Assembly: GCA_003251535.1 (NCBI GenBank)
Contig: QKFD01000052.1
Span: 1 to 43,671 of the forward strand
Source of the DNA: Chromatiales bacterium
GTDB taxonomy: Bacteria; Pseudomonadota; Gammaproteobacteria; Thiohalomonadales; Thiohalomonadaceae
DNA: 43,671 nt
Reading direction: 5' to 3'
The stretch's first letter is position 1, and each line of letters starts with the position of its first letter. The notes beneath the pieces were generated by a model. It was not told where the DNA came from. It saw nothing but the letters and a program-made list of their open reading frames with translations, and searched no databases. Positions 4,358 to 39,321 of this stretch are shown here, one piece after another. Both the position numbers and the translations under genes were made by a program.

Positions 4358-5740
4358 ATGCTAGCCATGTCCAAGTCTAAAAACGCCATCGCTTTAGCCT
4401 TTGCCGGCTTTGTTGCCATCACTTCAGCTGCCTATGCTGCGCTGCCTTTTGCCGATAGTCAGGAGACCCCTCTGCCGACCTTGGCTCCGATGGTTGAGCG
4501 GACCATGCCGGCGGTGGTCAACGTCTTCTCCCGGGCACGGATCCCGGTGGAGCGCAACCCCATGCTCTCCGATCCCTTCTTTCGCCGCTTCTTCAATGTC
4601 CCTGAGCAGCCGCGTGAGCGGCAGGCGCAGAGCTTAGGCTCTGGGGTCATTGTCGATGCCAATCATGGTTACATCCTCACCAACCACCATGTGGTGGCCG
4701 AGGCAGATGAGATCTCGGTACAGCTCTCCGACGGCCGCAATCTGACAGCCCGCTTAGTGGGGAGCGATTCTGAGACCGATATCGCCCTGTTGCAGGTAGA
4801 TGACACCAGTGGCCTCGTGGCCCTTCCCTTCGCCAACTCTGATCAACTACGGGTGGGTGATTTTGTGGTGGCCATCGGTAATCCGTTTGGCCTCGGTCAC
4901 TCGGTCACCTCCGGTATTGTCTCCGGGCTTGGCCGCTCTGGCCTAGGTATCGAAGGGTACGAGGACTTTATCCAGACCGATGCCTCCATCAACCCCGGCA
5001 ACTCCGGGGGGGCCCTGGTGAATCTGCGCGGGGAGCTGGTTGGGGTAAATACCGCGATCCTCTCTAAGAGCGGGGGCAACATGGGGATCGGTTTTGCCAT
5101 CCCCATCAATATGGCGCGCAATATCCTCAATCAGTTGTCGGAGTTTGGTGAGGTGCAGCGCGGTCGGCTGGGGGTCTCGGTGCAGAATCTCACCCCTGAT
5201 CTGGCCCGGGCGTTTGGTATCACTGACCGGCACGGGGCGGTGGTGACACAGGTGGAGCCGGGTTCAGCGGCGGAGCGGGCCGGTCTTCAGTCGGGCGACA
5301 TTGTGCTAGAGGTGAATGGCCAGGCGGTGCAGTCGGCGGCCGATCTACGCAACGTTGTCGGATTGATGCGGGTGGGGGAGGAGGTCACCTTGAAGGTGCA
5401 GCGCGGTAGTGAGCAGCGCACCCTCTCCACCAAGGTGAAGGCACCACAGTTGACCCAAGTGGAGGGGGAGAAGATCCACCCCCGCTTTGCCGGGGCTGCA
5501 CTCGGCAACATTGTGGAGGGGATGCCAGAGTTTGGCCGTCTGCATGGGGTGGTGGTGACGGCAGTGGATCGCCGCTCACCCGCTGCTGTAGCTGGGTTGC
5601 GGCCGGGGGATATCATCACCCAGGCCAATCGGCGTTCAGTGCAGGATATTGACGGCCTACGCCAGGCTGTGCAGGGGAGCGGTAATCTGTTGCTCAATGT
5701 GCAGCGGGGGGGCGGGGCGTTTTACATCTTGTTGCAGTAG
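4358..5740 (+). CDS. Periplasmic serine endoprotease DegP/DegQ (HtrA family)
   Basis: HtrA proteases degrade or refold misfolded periplasmic proteins. The 460-residue protein has an N-terminal signal peptide (about residues 1-30, ending in AYA), a trypsin-like domain and two PDZ domains (about 258-350 and 365-460). The catalytic triad is visible as His111 in TNHHVV, Asp141 in ETDIALL and Ser216 in GNSGGAL. Two PDZ domains and a cleavable signal fit DegP/DegQ rather than DegS. ATG 4358 and an in-frame ATG at 4367 are both possible starts; neither has a strong ribosome site. It follows an OmpA-type lipoprotein gene with which it may share a sigma-E-like promoter. Confidence 0.93.
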   Translation: MLAMSKSKNAIALAFAGFVAITSAAYAALPFADSQETPLPTLAPMVERTMPAVVNVFSRARIPVERNPMLSDPFFRRFFNVPEQPRERQAQSLGSGVIVDANHGYILTNHHVVAEADEISVQLSDGRNLTARLVGSDSETDIALLQVDDTSGLVALPFANSDQLRVGDFVVAIGNPFGLGHSVTSGIVSGLGRSGLGIEGYEDFIQTDASINPGNSGGALVNLRGELVGVNTAILSKSGGNMGIGFAIPINMARNILNQLSEFGEVQRGRLGVSVQNLTPDLARAFGITDRHGAVVTQVEPGSAAERAGLQSGDIVLEVNGQAVQSAADLRNVVGLMRVGEEVTLKVQRGSEQRTLSTKVKAPQLTQVEGEKIHPRFAGAALGNIVEGMPEFGRLHGVVVTAVDRRSPAAVAGLRPGDIITQANRRSVQDIDGLRQAVQGSGNLLLNVQRGGGAFYILLQ

Positions 5741-5769
5741 CGCGGCGCCCCCTTCTTAACGGGCATCCA

Positions 5770-5793
5770 GGCCACCCCAGCGGTGGGGTGGCC
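5770..5793. terminator. Bidirectional hairpin between convergent genes
   Basis: GGCCACCCC (5770-5778) and GGGGTGGCC (5785-5793) form a perfect 9-bp stem with a 6-base loop. It lies between the convergent protease and lipoprotein genes. No T-run follows on either side. Confidence 0.6.
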
Positions 5794-5800
5794 GCGGCTG

Positions 5801-6211
5801 TTACGAGCGCTCCTCTCGGCGATCCAGGCGCCACCCCTTCTCGGTGCGGATAAAGCGATAACGTGCCTCCTGATGCAGGGTGTCGCCCGCACGGAAATCG
5901 CCATACTCCACCCCCAATGAGAAGGCCGCCGCCCCGGCGGCAAAGATGCTGCCGGTCTCCCGCTGGAGTTCGGCGACCGCCCGTTCTAGATCCATCTTGA
6001 AGTAGAGATCGTAACTCACCTCTATGCTGTAGCTATTCTTGTCCCGTGGGATACCGTTGACCTTGGTGAGATTCCGCACCTCGTAGACTCGATCACGCCC
6101 CCCGCTCAGCAGGTCGTCGGTGACTTGGGTTGTGATGTCGGCCTCGCTGGGGCGATCGGCGCAGGCCGCAAGCAGCAGGGAGAGGAGGGTGATAAGCACT
6201 ATGCGGTACAT
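5801..6211 (-). CDS. Predicted lipoprotein of unknown function
   Basis: I do not recognise this family. The start is taken at MYRIVLITLLSLLLAAC (ATG 6211), which has a GGAG in front of it and gives a classic lipoprotein signal with lipobox LAAC at residues 14-17. The earlier ATG at 6241 would put an Arg/Pro-rich stretch before the signal. The mature part is about 120 residues and looks like a mixed alpha/beta fold, with VRNLTKVNGIPRDKNSY and a C-terminal YRFIRTEKGWRL strand pair. It resembles small periplasmic domains with DUF4878-like or NTF2-like shape, but this is only an impression. It converges on the protease gene. Confidence 0.75.
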   Translation of the reverse strand: MYRIVLITLLSLLLAACADRPSEADITTQVTDDLLSGGRDRVYEVRNLTKVNGIPRDKNSYSIEVSYDLYFKMDLERAVAELQRETGSIFAAGAAAFSLGVEYGDFRAGDTLHQEARYRFIRTEKGWRLDRREERS

Positions 6212-33966: not shown

Positions 33967-34304
33967 GTTGGTTCCTCAGATTCATCACCCCGCAACGGGG
34001 GACGAAGGCGTGGATGTTATTGAAATCACTGCTTATCACCCCGGCGCGGCCCCATTTCTTACCACCGTCCGAACGCGCCGTAACGGTGCTGAGAGATCCA
34101 GGCCGATCGGCAGCTGCCGCCGTGACCGGGTGCGGTAGGGCAGGGATCCTACCTGTGCGCTCGACGATGCACCAGCGGGGAGGTGAGCGGCAGGGGAGGG
34201 TTGTGATGAAAAAGTGAGATCTGCGCGAAAGGGGCGTGAGACCCGAGGTTCATGCTGCTTCCCAACACGGCGGATGGTCCGCCCTGTTAAACGGAGGAAT
34301 CCCA
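33967..34304. other. Intergenic stretch ahead of the hvf operon
   Basis: This 338-base gap separates yebC from hvfA and should contain both promoters. A short CCCC/GGGG stem lies at 33989-34001. GTAACG at 34080-34085 recalls ECF-sigma -35 elements, but I see no well-spaced -10. An AT-rich patch occurs near 34200-34225. No gene of convincing quality is seen. Confidence 0.4.
34264..34288 (+). promoter_or_regulatory. Hairpin just before the hvfA ribosome site
   Basis: AACA-C-GGCGGA pairs with TCCGCC-C-TGTT around a TGG loop: a 10-bp stem with one C-C mismatch. It ends two bases before the ACGGAGGAAT ribosome site, so it could affect translation or mRNA stability of the precursor gene. Confidence 0.5.
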
Positions 34305-34589
34305 ATGAAACAGACCACCGGCATCACCCTTGGCCTCGCCCTCGGCGGCGTATTTGCTTTTGGCTCCGCCCTGGCCGATGGCGGCAACCCCTTCACCACC
34401 GTTGAGCACGGCCCCCTACAGGTCGCGGCTGCCGGTGAGGCGCAGTGCGGTGAGGCGAAGTGCGGCGGTAATAAGAAGCCCACCCCTGCCACCGACATGC
34501 CGAGCACCCCGGAGGCGAAGTGCGGTGCCAACACCGGTGATAAGGGGGAGCCGGCGCCGGGCGAAGCCAAGTGCGGCGCTAACAAGTAG
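34305..34589 (+). CDS. hvfA: HvfA-like precursor of a copper/metal-binding RiPP
   Basis: This 94-residue precursor has a Sec signal (residues 1-24, ending SALA) and a Gly/Pro/Lys-rich mature part. It holds four cysteines, each in a Glu-Ala-Lys/Gln-Cys-Gly motif: C48, C53, C73 and C90. The first two motifs are directly joined (EAQCGEAKCG). In related HvfA/GigA peptides the cysteines of EGKCG motifs are turned into oxazolone/thioamide rings by a DUF692 enzyme, and the product binds copper (or other soft metals). The next three genes encode that machinery. GGAGG precedes ATG 34305. Unlike the common EGKCG, the second position is Ala in every motif here. Confidence 0.88.
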   Translation: MKQTTGITLGLALGGVFAFGSALADGGNPFTTVEHGPLQVAAAGEAQCGEAKCGGNKKPTPATDMPSTPEAKCGANTGDKGEPAPGEAKCGANK

Positions 34590-34601
34590 TCGGTGACGGT
34601 C

Positions 34602-35444
34602 ATGGAGCACCGTCACCTGCAAGGTGCCGGTCTGGGTCTGCGGCGCGCCCTGATGGGCGCGCTCGCCGACGCCCCGACCGCTGCCATCGATTTCCTGGAG
34701 CTGGCCCCGGAGAACTGGCTGGGGCTGGGTGGCTACTACCCGCGGGCCTTGGCGGCGCTGGGGGAGCGCTGGCCCTTGGTGTGTCATGGTCTCTCCCTCT
34801 CCCTGGGTTCACCCGACCCGCTGGATGGGGCGCTGCTCGACCAGTTAAAGGGCTTTTTTCAGCGCTATGAGGTCCCGCTCTATTCGGAACACCTCTCCTA
34901 CTGCTCCGCTGACGGCCACCTCTACGACCTGCTGCCGCTGCCCTTTACGGAGGAGGCAGTACACCACGTTGCCGGCCGTATCCGGCAGGTGCAGGAGCGG
35001 TTGGAGCGGCGCATCGCGGTGGAGAACATCTCGGCCTATCTGCGTCCACCCGGGACCTTGGGGGAGGCGGAGTTCATCTGTGCCGTGCTGGCGGAGGCCG
35101 ATTGTGATCTGTTGTTGGATGTCAACAACGCCTACGTCAACGGCGTCAATCACGGGGAGGACCCGGTCGCCTTCATCCGCGCCCTGCCACCGGAGCGGGT
35201 GGTCTATATCCACGTGGCCGGCCACTACCGCGAGGCGACCGATCTACTGATCGATACCCATGGGGCGGCGGTGGTCGATCCCGTCTGGTCACTGTTGGGC
35301 GTCGCCTACGACCACTGTGGGGTACGCCCGACGCTCCTGGAGCGGGACTTCAATCTGCCACCACTACCGCAGCTACTGGCGGAGGTGGAGACCATCCGCC
35401 ATCTACAACGGCAGGGAGGGTGGCGCCATGCAGCCTGTGCCTGA
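34602..35444 (+). CDS. hvfB: DUF692/MNIO multinuclear iron oxygenase (HvfB-like)
   Basis: HvfB-type enzymes use a cluster of two or three irons and oxygen to remodel cysteine residues of a RiPP precursor. The 280-residue TIM-barrel protein shows the family residues in order: [96 protein letters not shown] and LLERDFN. The His, Asp, Glu and Asn residues of these segments form the iron sites. ATG 34602 is preferred; GTG 34593 is possible. It lies 12 bases after hvfA and its end overlaps hvfC by 17 bases. Confidence 0.95.
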
Positions 35445-36174
35445 ACTGGCGGCGGGGCAGTTCGCCTTTGCCAACCACCTGCGTGACCCTGCCCGGCGGC
35501 CACCACCGGAGGGGTGTGCGCCAGAGCGGGTGGCCGTTTATGGCGAACTCTTTTTTAACAATATTGATGGTGTCCTGGGTGACGCCCTGCCGCAGCTGCG
35601 AGGACAGTTAGGGGCGGGGCAGTGGCAGCAGCTGGTGCGCCGTTTCTATGCCGAACAGAACCATCGAGAGCCGCTGTTTCATCGCCTGCCGGGGGAGTTT
35701 GTCACCTGGCTGGCCGGCGGTGGGGCGCTGCTGCCACTCCCTCTGCTGGAGCTGGCCGACTTTGAGTGGCAGCGATTGAGTCTGAGCTGGGCCGAAGCGG
35801 CGGCGGTGCCACCCACCGTCGCTGGGGGCTTACGGCTCCTGGCGCCGCAGCGACTGCTGGGCTACCGCTATCCAGTCCACCGCCTGCCTGGGTCTGCCGT
35901 GGCCGAGAGCAGTTGGTTGTTACTGTGGCGTAACCGCCACGATAGGGTGGAGTTGATGGAGCTGACGCCAGCCGGGGCGCTGCTGCTGTCGCGTGTGGCG
36001 GCCAACCCTAGCCATCGCAGTGGGGAGCTACTGGCCGAGGTCGCTACGACCATCGGCCATCCCGATCCGGCGGCGGCCAGCGCCTTTGGCCGGCAGCTAC
36101 TGGTGCGCTGGCGGGAGCTGGGGGTGATCGCGGGGGAGATCGACGGAGGGTCAGGGCATGAAGCTACTCACTGA
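35428..36174 (+). CDS. hvfC: DUF2063 RiPP maturation partner (HvfC-like)
   Basis: The 248-residue protein starts at ATG 35428 after GGGAGGG and overlaps hvfB by 17 bases. It has the DUF2063 domain at the N-terminus (about 5-95): [19 protein letters not shown], then [22 protein letters not shown] and [21 protein letters not shown]. The C-terminal half has a winged-helix-like part ([13 protein letters not shown] and following). In this RiPP class the DUF2063 protein is thought to bind the precursor and deliver it to the DUF692 enzyme. The motif RxYxE/L-FFNN is conserved in the family. The end overlaps hvfX by 17 bases. Confidence 0.92.
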
Positions 36175-36760
36175 GATACAGCGCCTGATGGTGCTGACCC
36201 AGCGGGCGGATCTGTTGGCACCCCTGCTGTTGCGGCTCTATCTGGTCCCCATCCTCTGGGAGTCAGGGGGCCGTAAGTTGGCCCATATGGAGGCGACCAT
36301 CAGCTGGTTTGGCAACCCGGAGTGGGGCCTGGGGCTGCCCTTTCCGGCCCTGCTGGCGTGGCTTGCCACCCTCACCGAGGTTGGGGGGGCGGTGGCACTA
36401 CTACTGGGGTTGGGGGTGCGCTGGATGGCCATCCCCTTGATGATCACCATGCTGGTGGCGGCCCTGACCGCCCATTGGGAGAACGGCTGGTTGGCCATCG
36501 CGGCCAGCGATTCGGTCGCGGCGTTGCGTTTGGATGGGCTACTGGAGTGGTTGGCGCAAGAGCACCCAGGGCGTTATCACTACATCACTGAACTCGGCAC
36601 GCCGGTGGTACTCAATAACGGCATTGAGTTTGCCGCCACCTACTTTGTGATGCTCCTGGCCCTCTTCTTCCTCGGCGCCGGCCGTTGGCTCAGCCTCGAC
36701 TACTGGCTGGGTCGCTACCTGTTCGGCTACCACCGGCCGTGCACACCGGCCACGCCCTGA
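36158..36760 (+). CDS. hvfX: DoxX-family membrane protein (HvfX-like)
   Basis: This 200-residue protein has four predicted membrane segments, near residues 17-35, 60-84, 88-108 and 150-170, as in the DoxX family. Landmarks are RLYLVPILWESGGRKLAHM, FPALLAWLATLTEVGGAVAL and NNGIEFAATYFVMLLALFF. In copper-RiPP operons the DoxX-like protein is the usual fourth gene and may handle the metal or electrons at the inner membrane; its exact role is unclear. GGAGGG precedes ATG 36158. The coding end of hvfC overlaps it. A 126-base gap with an 8-bp inverted repeat leads to msrP. Confidence 0.9.
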   Translation: MKLLTEIQRLMVLTQRADLLAPLLLRLYLVPILWESGGRKLAHMEATISWFGNPEWGLGLPFPALLAWLATLTEVGGAVALLLGLGVRWMAIPLMITMLVAALTAHWENGWLAIAASDSVAALRLDGLLEWLAQEHPGRYHYITELGTPVVLNNGIEFAATYFVMLLALFFLGAGRWLSLDYWLGRYLFGYHRPCTPATP

Positions 36761-36767
36761 GATGGGG

Positions 36768-36813
36768 GCGCCGGCCAGTAGGCAGAGTGCCCTTCCACCC
36801 CTTCCGCCGGCGC
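36768..36813. repeat. Inverted repeat between hvfX and msrP
   Basis: GCGCCGGC (36768-36775) and GCCGGCGC (36806-36813) are perfect complements across a 30-base loop. It may weaken read-through from hvf into msrPQ or shape the msrP leader; no T-run follows. Confidence 0.4.
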
Positions 36814-36886
36814 AGTGGTTGGGCTGTGCCACGCGGATCTCTACGACCGATCAGACCCCTCTGCTGGGGTCCTTGGGAGAGCTGCC

Positions 36887-37846
36887 ATGTTGATTCGACG
36901 AGCCGCCGATATCCGCCCCTCAGAGATCACCGATGAGAAGGTGTGGCGCGCCCGCCGCGACTTCCTGCGGTTGGGGGCTGCTGGGGCGTTACTGCTCACC
37001 TCGCCGGCCCGTGCCGGTCTGTTCGATAGCACCCCAGAGCCGCCGCCGGGCCGGGCCGACTTCACCGGCCTCAATACCACCTGGGGCAGCGAGCTGAAGG
37101 CCAACAGCTGGCAGGAGATCACCACCTACAACAACTTCTACGAGCTGGGTACCGACAAGGCCGATCCGGCCCAGAATGCCCACTACTTCACCCCCCAACC
37201 GTGGTCGGTTGCCATTGAGGGGGAGGTGGCGCGGCCAGGTCGCTTAGGCGTTGAGGACCTCATCGCCCGCCACCCGCTGGAGGAGCGGATCTACCGGCTG
37301 CGCTGTGTGGAGGGGTGGTCGATGGTGATCCCTTGGGTGGGGTTTCCGCTGGCCGACCTACTCAAGCGCTTCGAACCTACCGCCAATGCCAAATATGTGG
37401 AGTTCACCACCCTCCATGATCCGCAGCGGCTGCCCGGGCAGCAGCGTGCCGTCCTCCCTTGGCCCTATGTGGAGGGGCTGCGAATGGACGAGGCGATGCA
37501 CCCTCTCAGTCTCATCGCCGTGGGGCTCTATGGGCGGATGCTCCCGGCCCAGAATGGGGCGCCGCTACGGCTAGTGGTGCCGTGGAAGTATGGCTTTAAG
37601 AGCATCAAATCCATCGTCCGCATCCGGCTGACGGAGCAGATGCCGCAGACCACCTGGCACCGGGCCAATGCCCATGAGTATGGTTTTTATGCCAACGTCA
37701 ATCCGGCCGTGGACCACCCGCGCTGGAGTCAGGCCCGGGAGCGGCGCATCGGTGAGTTTTTGAAGCGCGATACCCTACCGTTCAATGGCTATGGGGAGCA
37801 GGTGGCCTCCCTCTATAGCGGCATGGATCTGACGCAATGGTTTTAA
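36887..37846 (+). CDS. msrP: Protein-methionine-sulfoxide reductase MsrP, molybdenum catalytic subunit
   Basis: MsrP reduces oxidised methionines in periplasmic proteins. The 319-residue protein has a Tat signal, with [16 protein letters not shown] at residues about 23-38, as expected for a cofactor-bearing exported protein. The molybdenum-ligand Cys lies in [29 protein letters not shown] and the C-terminal [10 protein letters not shown] are family landmarks. GGAGAG precedes ATG 36887, giving a proper Tat signal. Its 3' end overlaps msrQ by 10 bases. It lies just behind a copper-RiPP operon, and moeA is encoded nearby. Confidence 0.96.
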
Positions 37847-38487
37847 CCACCCCCATGGACCGAGCCCAGGGGCGCGCCAGGCAGTCGTCCGACCCCGTGC
37901 GTTGGCTAAAACCTCTGCTATTCGGCTTGGCGTTACTCCCCCTGGCCCTCATGGGGTGGGATACGGTGAGTGGTGGCCTGGGGGCCAACCCCATTGAGAG
38001 CCTCATCCGCCGTAATGGCGACTGGGCGTTGCGGTTTCTACTCTTGACCCTGACCATCACCCCGCTGCGGGAGTTGAGCGGCTGGAGCGGTGCCATTCGG
38101 TTGCGCCGGATGATCGGGCTGTTTGCCTTCTTCTATGCCACCCTCCATCTTGCCGGCTATGTGGTGTTGGAGCAGTTTTTCGACTGGCCGGCGATGGGGG
38201 CCGATCTCCTGAAACGGCCCTATATCACCCTGGGCATGGGCTGCTTTTTGCTCCTGCTGCCCCTCGCCATCACCTCCACCAACGGCATGATTAGGCGGTT
38301 GGGGGGACGGCGCTGGCGGGCCCTGCACCGGCTTATCTATCCCGCCGCCCTGTTGGCGGTGGCCCACTACTTCCTGTTGGTCAAGGCGGATCTGCGCGAG
38401 CCAATACTTTACGGCGCCCTGTTGGCCCTGCTCCTGGGCTATCGGCTGGTGCGGGCGCTGCCGGGGCGGCATTCAGCCGCTGGATAG
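37837..38487 (+). CDS. msrQ: MsrQ haem-binding membrane subunit
   Basis: MsrQ passes electrons from the quinone pool or flavin reductase to MsrP. The 216-residue protein has about six membrane segments and belongs to the ferric-reductase-like transmembrane family. Landmarks are GALRFLLL-type helix 2 ([18 protein letters not shown]), [20 protein letters not shown] with haem-ligand His, PYITLGM, and [22 protein letters not shown] with further haem-ligand His residues. The ATG at 37837 overlaps the msrP end; ATG 37855 is an alternative that would trim the leader. The N-terminal segment is polar, as is common. The pair is probably always made together. Confidence 0.95.
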
Positions 38488-38736
38488 GGGGGGACTCACA
38501 ATCGTCATAGGGTTGACTTGGACATTAGCGGCCATATGAACAAGACTGCTAAGCGGTCGGTCAGCGTGAGCCATACCGGCTGAGGCGGCTGAAGCGGGTA
38601 TGCAAACTGATGTACAGTGCTCGCAACTATCCGCTATTCTTTATGGCTTAAGTCAACAACCAAGAATCGTTCTAACCGGCCCGGCCGGCCCTGGAACCCC
38701 CCCAGATTCCCAACACGGAGCAAGAAGGAGTCAATG

Positions 38737-39321
38737 ATGAAGCACGAACTGCCTGCCCTGCCCTACGCCAAGAACGCCCTGGAGCCGCACATCTCTGCCG
38801 AGACCCTGGAGTTCCACCACGGCAAGCACCACCAGACCTACGTGGACAACCTCAACAAGCTGGTGCCGGGGACCGAGTTTGAGAACGCCTCCCTGGAGGA
38901 GATCATCAAGAAGGCGTCGGCGGGTGGCATCTTCAACAATGCAGCCCAGGTCTGGAACCACACCTTCTACTGGAACTGCATGGGGCCGGGTGCCGGCGGC
39001 GAGCCCACGGGCGCCCTGGCCGAGGCGATCAACCAGGCGTTTGGCTCCTTCGAGGCCTTTAAGGAGAAGTTTTCCACCTCCGGTGCCACCAACTTCGGTT
39101 CTGGCTGGACCTGGCTGGTGAAGGGGACCGATGGCGCCCTGGAGATCGTCAACACCTCCAACGCCGGTAACCCGATGACCGATGGTAAGACCCCGCTGCT
39201 CACCTGCGATGTCTGGGAGCACGCCTACTACATCGACTATCGCAACGCCCGTCCCAAATATATCGCCTCCTTCTGGTCCCTGGTGAACTGGGCCTTTGTG
39301 GCCGAGCAGTTCGCCGCCTGA
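38737..39321 (+). CDS. sodB: Iron superoxide dismutase
   Basis: SodB turns superoxide to oxygen and hydrogen peroxide in the cytoplasm. The 194-residue protein shows the metal ligands His27 (LEFHHGKHH), a second His in [12 protein letters not shown], and Asp and His in [12 protein letters not shown]. The segment [12 protein letters not shown] with its Gln is typical of the iron type rather than the manganese type. AAGGAG at 38725-38730 lies six bases before ATG 38737, preferred over ATG 38734. A 7-bp stem lies shortly after the gene (GGCCCCG 39357-39363 with CGGGGCC 39388-39394). It joins the oxidant-defence theme of the msrPQ region. Confidence 0.97.

Follow-up and report, generated by a model that had tools for sequence, protein, structure and literature searches.

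The window analysed here is the whole 43,671-nucleotide contig QKFD01000052.1 (assembly GCA_003251535.1) from the 4.6-Mb genome of a Chromatiales bacterium, labelled G000 below (G, C and L numbers are our labels for genomes, contigs and loci). Read as open reading frames (ORFs), and on the + strand throughout, it carries an hvfA-hvfB-hvfC-hvfX cassette (34305-36760) for a ribosomally synthesised and post-translationally modified peptide (RiPP), the methionine-sulfoxide reductase pair msrP-msrQ (36887-38487) and, from 38734, sodB. The joining of hvf-type genes, or of other genes for multinuclear non-haem iron oxidative (MNIO) enzymes, to msrPQ is conserved in one bacterial order, that of the window, and is sporadic yet recurrent beyond it; the join, retained in near relatives behind a common control site, suggests that metal trapping is turned on together with the repair of oxidation, as a single defence. 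The features are as follows.

34203..34239, + strand: operator, direct repeats GTGA/GTGA/GCGA/GTGA at an exact 11-bp spacing; putative OmpR-family regulator site
34251..34256, + strand: -10-like box CATGCT, 15 bp past the start of the last repeat
34305..34589, + strand: hvfA, secreted-type precursor peptide of 94 amino acids (NF050137, 25.4 bits against a cut-off of 19.5)
34593..35444, + strand: hvfB, MNIO RiPP maturase (NF003818, 405.7 against 360)
35428..36174, + strand: hvfC, MNIO partner of the DUF2063 / RiPP recognition element (RRE) type (NF050145, 192.6 against 142)
36158..36760, + strand: hvfX, DoxX-family membrane protein (NF050144, 212.6 against 80)
36887..37846, + strand: msrP, periplasmic molybdenum methionine-sulfoxide reductase (NF003767, 466.4 against 207)
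37837..38487, + strand: msrQ, haem-binding membrane partner of MsrP (NF003831, 185.9 against 130)
38734..39321, + strand: sodB, iron/manganese superoxide dismutase (Pfam Sod_Fe_N and Sod_Fe_C both passed)

Genes of the locus

All six hvf and msr genes lie where the initial annotation had put them, on the + strand, and HvfB, HvfC, HvfX, MsrP and MsrQ score past curated models. The description of hvfB-hvfC-hvfX as one overlapping unit is borne out by 17 bp of overlap at both the hvfB/hvfC and the hvfC/hvfX junction, and msrP and msrQ overlap by 10 bp; the start codon of hvfB is a GTG at 34593, with an alternative ATG at 34602. The reported spacing of 126 bases between hvfX and msrP holds when counted to the likely ATG at 36887, and comes to 54 bp if counted to an in-frame GTG at 36815. 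HvfB matches PDB entry 3bww (E 1e-76), HvfC matches 3dee (E 1.5e-9) and MsrP matches 1xdq (E 1.8e-103), the last with an aligned part that takes in the RCVE segment, whose cysteine we take to be the molybdenum ligand, and a twin-arginine-like signal (RRDFL) can be read at the MsrP N-terminus. Since MsrP and MsrQ are adjacent and both exceed their curated cut-offs, we assign them by sequence to the MsrPQ system; by Pfam domain they are PF00174 and ferric-reductase proteins, respectively. MoeA and SodB had also been pointed out as neighbours. SodB does follow msrPQ, and its best NCBIfam model stays below cut-off (335.8 against 348); MoeA looks incidental, and because it lies on the opposite strand, beyond YebC, and neither MoeA nor YebC gave a match in the maps of 23 loci, we dropped MoeA as a member of the unit.

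HvfA had been taken for an EGKCG peptide, which stands in part. The domain model is passed; its four cysteines, in alignment with relatives, lie in the repeats EAQCG, EAKCG, EAKCG and EAKCG, not EGKCG, and the equivalog model NF050188 is failed (25.0 against 95), as it also is by a clear EGKCG-type HvfA, that of G010 (60.7 against 95). The peptide has a signal-like N-terminus and an NPF motif, the latter found in most relatives. Because characterised EGKCG-type members carry thiooxazoles and bind copper (PMC13097082; here and below, papers are cited for the sections drawn on), the hvf gene set probably makes a copper-binding peptide, and HvfA probably carries cysteine-derived 5-thiooxazoles. 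Some HvfA-type precursors are rich in methionine: the mature part has 31 Met in 127 residues at L087, 11 in 86 at L058 and 9 in 74 at L151, the last from G380, a relative in which hvf and msrP are also joined. Judged by their sequences, these three precursors are mixed Cys-metallophore and Met-rich peptides.

Searched as a whole, the genome has four MNIO-family matches and a single MsrP match. A second MNIO cluster, L181 (contig C31, 5175-9216), has a BufB over cut-off and a bufC-like partner and is preceded by a 669-residue protein without an NCBIfam match; no bufferin precursor was seen beside it in the ORF list. The other two matches, L182 (C38, 6518-7360) and L004/L183 (C33), are distant, at 80 and 78 bits; they are possibly other RiPP clusters, and by eye the match on C38 lies among transporter-like genes.

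Conservation and recurrence of the hvf-msrPQ join

Is the adjacency peculiar to this contig? The initial annotation had proposed searching HvfB neighbourhoods for a recurrent link, with absence of the adjacency from related genomes as its refutation, and the link does recur. Among 20 genomes of the window's order, HvfB is over cut-off in 10 and MsrP in 17, and 7 of the 10 with HvfB have msrP as the next same-strand gene after the hvf set (G000, G375, G376, G380, G381, G383 and G384, the last a Thiohalomonas denitrificans metagenome-assembled genome), G380 being without hvfX; a one-off adjacency is thus rejected. The hvfX-msrP junctions of the relatives are tight, with overlaps of 11 bp in G383 and G384 and 23 bp in G381 and gaps of 19 bp in G376 and 14 bp in G375, and G380 has 23 bp counted from hvfC. 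A quick HvfB tree places the linked rows in three supported groups, compatible with one origin. Two named loci, L053 and L068, were rejected as independent genomes, being the same as G384 and G375. Downstream, an msrPQ-sodB-argD-argF block accompanies hvf in the linked genomes, sodB stands behind msrPQ in relatives both with and without hvf, and hvf looks like a module that comes and goes beside this block.

Beyond the order, we surveyed a class sample of 369 genomes, of which 117 have an HvfB above cut-off and 160 an MsrP; at least 68 have both (odds ratio 2.9, p 5e-6, uncorrected for kinship). The matches listed cover 150 of the 160 MsrP genomes, those unlisted including the HvfB-bearing G158, G269 and G363, and 118 of 137 BufB genomes, so that counts of co-location are lower bounds; expected values were computed with a genome size of 3.2 Mb and are likewise uncorrected for kinship. 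An MNIO gene lies within 5 kb of msrP in at least five genomes from four families, where about 0.44 would be expected: with HvfB in at least two (G000 and G010; about 0.22 expected) and with BufB in at least three (G227, G110 and G047; about 0.22 expected). The architectures vary. Outside the order, HvfB-MsrP adjacency occurs in G010 only, among the matches listed, with the order msrP-msrQ-hvfA-hvfB-hvfC; G110 and G227 have a bufA2-type precursor, bufB, a bufC-like gene, msrP and msrQ; and G047 (L185, 3154-9475) has, on one strand, two bufferin-like precursors, bufB, a bufC-like gene, a DoxX gene, an extracytoplasmic function (ECF) sigma factor, a protein of 223 residues that matched no family, and then msrP and msrQ. 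In the best 80 of 449 named HvfB loci, 63 of which extend at least 4 kb downstream, MsrP is near HvfB in two, both in order genomes already counted.

The GTGA-repeat operator and its candidate regulator

The operator in front of hvfA consists of four repeats starting at 34203, 34214, 34225 (the GCGA) and 34236. When the hvfA upstream regions were compared, the best common word had 17 mismatches in total, against 23-25 for the best of shuffled sequences, and the -10-like box keeps the same register across 11 training promoters. The operator is the window's only match at two or fewer mismatches (mean of 0.01 in dinucleotide shuffles), and it comes first of 87,226 window positions when scored with a matrix from which the sites of this genome were left out. 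Genome-wide, one mismatch allows four matches, including those before hvfA and before the response-regulator gene on contig C106, and the reversed pattern gives none. The repeats are common to the hvfA promoters of relatives and to genes of a two-component system.

That system provides the candidate regulator. C106, another contig of this genome, carries an OmpR-family response-regulator gene and a HAMP/HisKA kinase gene, and the kinase is 61% identical to the one encoded upstream of hvfA in G384. In the six linked relatives, as in G240 and G373, a regulator-kinase pair is encoded upstream of hvf, and the response-regulator gene has paired boxes in front of it both in this genome and in relatives. 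The kinase occurs in 9 of the 20 order genomes, and HvfB is over cut-off in eight of these nine; in the ninth, G373, the HvfB that follows kinase and operator is truncated where the contig stops. HvfB occurs without the kinase in G378 and in G369, where an ECF sigma/anti-sigma pair sits beside hvfA. Curated models do not place the system with HprSR or CusSR, the G384 (L152) proteins falling below the cut-offs of the metal- and chlorine-sensing models listed. Our literature searches gave no account of the regulator; they did turn up OrhK/OrhR, which we liken to it by description.

Kinase homologs extend to 62 of the 369 class genomes (63 matches), and we mapped the neighbourhoods of 40 matches. 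Fifteen of the 40 have a triple box no more than 3 kb away, against 0 of 800 shuffled pieces in which base content only was preserved. MsrAB or MsrB is encoded in four of the 40, two of them with a Met-rich secreted sequence, whereas a control set, the best 80 of 449 HvfB loci, has MsrA/MsrB motifs in none. In G178 the order is regulator, kinase, operator (a four-repeat box), redoxin, msrP, msrQ, and G124 has a divergent bufB-like/bufC-like pair. One Met in the predicted sensor region of the kinase is invariant in all 49 aligned homologs. Among side observations, a motif search places Spondin_N-like secreted proteins next to the two-component system in 12 of the 40 neighbourhoods (L248-L287; with a Pfam check at two loci, of which the motif had missed one), some with a GTGA box in front of their genes, and L265 (G228) encodes at 4544-5893 an MsrA-MsrB protein with an N-terminal Met-rich repeat, near a DUF1223 gene and the two-component system.

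Does the box also stand before msrP where msrP is not joined to hvf? In G240, where msrP lies away from hvf, a matrix built from 11 hvfA and regulator sites gives the msrP promoter the top score outside hvfA and regulator promoters (15.1, the next being 4.4, over 775,398 positions); the box has two mismatches in 16 letters, with TATACT in the same register. With the G240 hvfA site left out, the msrP site still leads its locus and ranks second among 449,642 positions. Across the class, five of 30 genomes with the kinase (G101, G178, G184, G291 and G318) have a triple box with at most one mismatch in front of msrP, and none of 30 without the kinase do (Fisher p 0.052); at two or fewer mismatches the counts are 8 of 30 and 1 of 30; the 30 controls were the best-scoring MsrP rows and not a random draw. 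The upstream stretches were about 550 bases long, apart from 73 in G093, 446 in the control G048 and 901 in G178, in which the box sits before the redoxin gene.

One defence unit or separate neighbours

Taken together, we consider it probable, at somewhat better than even confidence, that the locus is one co-regulated periplasmic copper/oxidant defence unit. The regulator and kinase of C106 would bind the four GTGA repeats before hvfA, and the bound regulator, under a presumed inducing signal, would activate one transcript from hvfA. HvfB and HvfC would convert the HvfA cysteines, probably to 5-thiooxazoles; the exported peptide would trap copper, with HvfX assisting; and read-through across the 126-bp gap would supply MsrP and MsrQ, which would reduce methionine sulfoxides made in periplasmic proteins by copper and reactive oxygen or chlorine species. 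SodB may add removal of superoxide. That the two modules act together had been proposed in the initial annotation, and the adjacency within the order and the box at hvfA promoters and at msrP elsewhere speak for it; because HvfB-MsrP adjacency is rare outside the order and MoeA looks incidental, and because we infer the signal and the joint transcription, the proposal is supported in part only.

Numerous observations weigh against a single unit. At the operator, the third repeat deviates, and the reversed pattern, at two mismatches over the whole order, still gives 0-3 matches per strand per genome (0 in G240), for which reason a single two-mismatch site needs a second reason to be believed; the matrix is not fully specific, because a G010 site without GTGA repeats outscores the G240 msrP site (17.7 against 14.6). 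The hvf-msrPQ locus of G010 itself gave no box match, with the kinase present in that genome; 25 of the 30 kinase-bearing genomes are without a box before msrP; and no MsrQ was seen beside the G240 msrP. As for the regulator, the G384 (L152) proteins score 173 against 353 with the HprR model, 165 against 420 with the copper/silver regulator model, 128 against 423 with the copper/silver kinase model and 203 against 292.6 with the heavy-metal kinase subfamily. The adjacency is missing from three of the ten HvfB-bearing order genomes (G378, G369 and G240), and in the two of these that are without the kinase, G378 and G369, the box is missing at both the hvf and the msrP locus. Of the seven linked genomes, that of the window has the widest junction, a terminator-like site lies within hvfX at 36498-36521, and a crude scan found no sigma-70-type promoter before hvfA. 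Finally, mature HvfA of the window has a single Met in 67 residues; this also speaks against placing it in the Met-rich MrpX-type peptide class, and we do not favour the idea that MsrP acts on HvfA in this genome.

What else might account for the arrangement? An hvf cassette may simply have settled upstream of an old msrPQ-sodB-argDF block, the two being expressed and used separately. The block persists in G379, G382 and G125, in which HvfB was not found, and in G378, in which hvf lies elsewhere, so that synteny alone is a weak argument; argD and argF are functionally unrelated and still syntenic; HvfB and MsrP lie within 5 kb in 2 of the 68 class genomes that have both, among the matches listed; and the window's gap of 126 bp would fit as well. 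This passive account nevertheless seems unlikely to us, given the overlapping or near-abutting junctions of six relatives, the box before the non-adjacent msrP of G240 and before msrP in other families, the MNIO-msrPQ joins in three other families and the sigma-F regulon of Caulobacter (PMC3511200). A related alternative would keep hvf under the two-component system and give msrPQ an unrelated promoter of its own in or before the gap, which the width of that gap and the terminator-like site in hvfX would favour; sites of this kind are about as common in shuffled sequence (5 found in the scanned stretch against 3.5 expected), and the scan found none in 36760-36887. The gap holds neither a GTGA box nor a sigma-70-like promoter, the same scan being the one that finds none before hvfA either, and we regard separate promoters as improbable.

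A different question is what the unit answers. It might respond mainly to oxidants, such as hypochlorous acid (HOCl) and other reactive chlorine or oxygen species, with the cysteine peptide as a thiol-type scavenger or a secondary metal buffer, as Met-rich peptides accompany MsrPQ elsewhere. The kinase homologs near MsrAB, MsrB or MsrPQ (5 of the 40 mapped neighbourhoods, twice with the Met-rich secreted sequence), the control HvfB loci, the invariant sensor Met, the 9 Met and 2 Cys in the HvfA of G380, the HOCl induction of BcrXQP in Brucella (PMC8315932) and the OrhK/OrhR two-component system of uropathogenic Escherichia coli (PMC8550376) all point that way; against it, HvfB, HvfC and HvfX score as full copper-RiPP family members, and captophorin peptides bind copper (PMC13097082). 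We hold this to be possible, if on the unlikely side. More tentatively than the defence unit itself, we raise as a possibility that the two-component system senses methionine oxidation, through the invariant Met, or copper in the periplasm, and that a GTGA regulon pairs secreted scavenger peptides with whichever Msr enzymes a lineage has, as one interchangeable module; its peptides would be Cys-RiPP metallophores in the order, Met-rich ones elsewhere and mixed Met/Cys ones in G380.

Parallels for a defence unit of this kind exist, each with differences. The Hvf/oxazolin systems of Haemophilus influenzae, Neisseria gonorrhoeae and Fontimonas thermophila, for which the name captophorin has been proposed, have the same families, that is, a secreted Cys-repeat precursor, an MNIO enzyme with its RRE partner and frequently DoxX (PMC13097082); the window's locus departs from them in EAKCG instead of EGKCG, in its continuation into msrPQ, and in its operator and two-component partner. 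In Caulobacter, a 2012 paper places two MNIO operons (CC3254-3257 and CC2907-2905) and YedY/MsrP (CC2748) under one regulator, sigma-F, in three separate transcription units with an ECF sigma factor and DUF2282 (bufferin) precursors, and its authors took YedY for a sulfite oxidase (PMC3511200). H. influenzae RpoE2, which controls hvf and other periplasmic reductases, and Neisseria SigE also tie hvf to periplasmic methionine-sulfoxide reductases, although these are MsrAB and MtsZ and not MsrPQ, in separate clusters under an ECF sigma factor (PMC7907618). E. coli hiuH-msrPQ is under the two-component systems HprSR and CusSR, with copper induction via CusSR, and E. coli MsrP restores oxidised CusF under copper (PMC9302797); there is no RiPP, the regulators are others, and we liken the systems by description. 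Similarly by description only, OrhK/OrhR directly activates a putative methionine-sulfoxide reductase operon, but it is H2O2-induced, joins other genes and has no RiPP (PMC8550376). In Azospira and Brucella, the secreted peptides MrpX and BcrX are co-expressed with MsrPQ; they differ in being Met-rich and sacrificial and under an ECF sigma factor, with no MNIO named (PMC8315932). A 2025 MNIO survey records that a small number of EGKCG clusters contain genes with PF00174 and ferric-reductase domains, and a word search of its main text gave no MsrP, MsrQ, YedY, sulfoxide or methionine, so that MsrP/MsrQ neighbours of such clusters had been seen there, neither named nor followed up in the sections drawn on (PMC12452194). 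Our literature search for MsrP with DUF692 returned no paper, and among the papers listed by our other searches none was on the hvf-msrPQ join by title or start of abstract. As far as these searches go, what is new comprises the join as a conserved feature of one order, the promoter with its GTGA repeats and partner two-component system, and the occurrence of the box at msrP elsewhere.

Copper-binding MNIO peptides and periplasmic methionine repair have usually been studied apart, with hints of common regulons. In this locus the two make up a conserved gene unit, preceded by a recognisable promoter box for which there is a candidate regulator, and MNIO-msrPQ joins recur in four families of the class sample with varied architecture; copper trapping and methionine repair as one response are therefore directly testable, and the system points to a candidate regulator of envelope stress.

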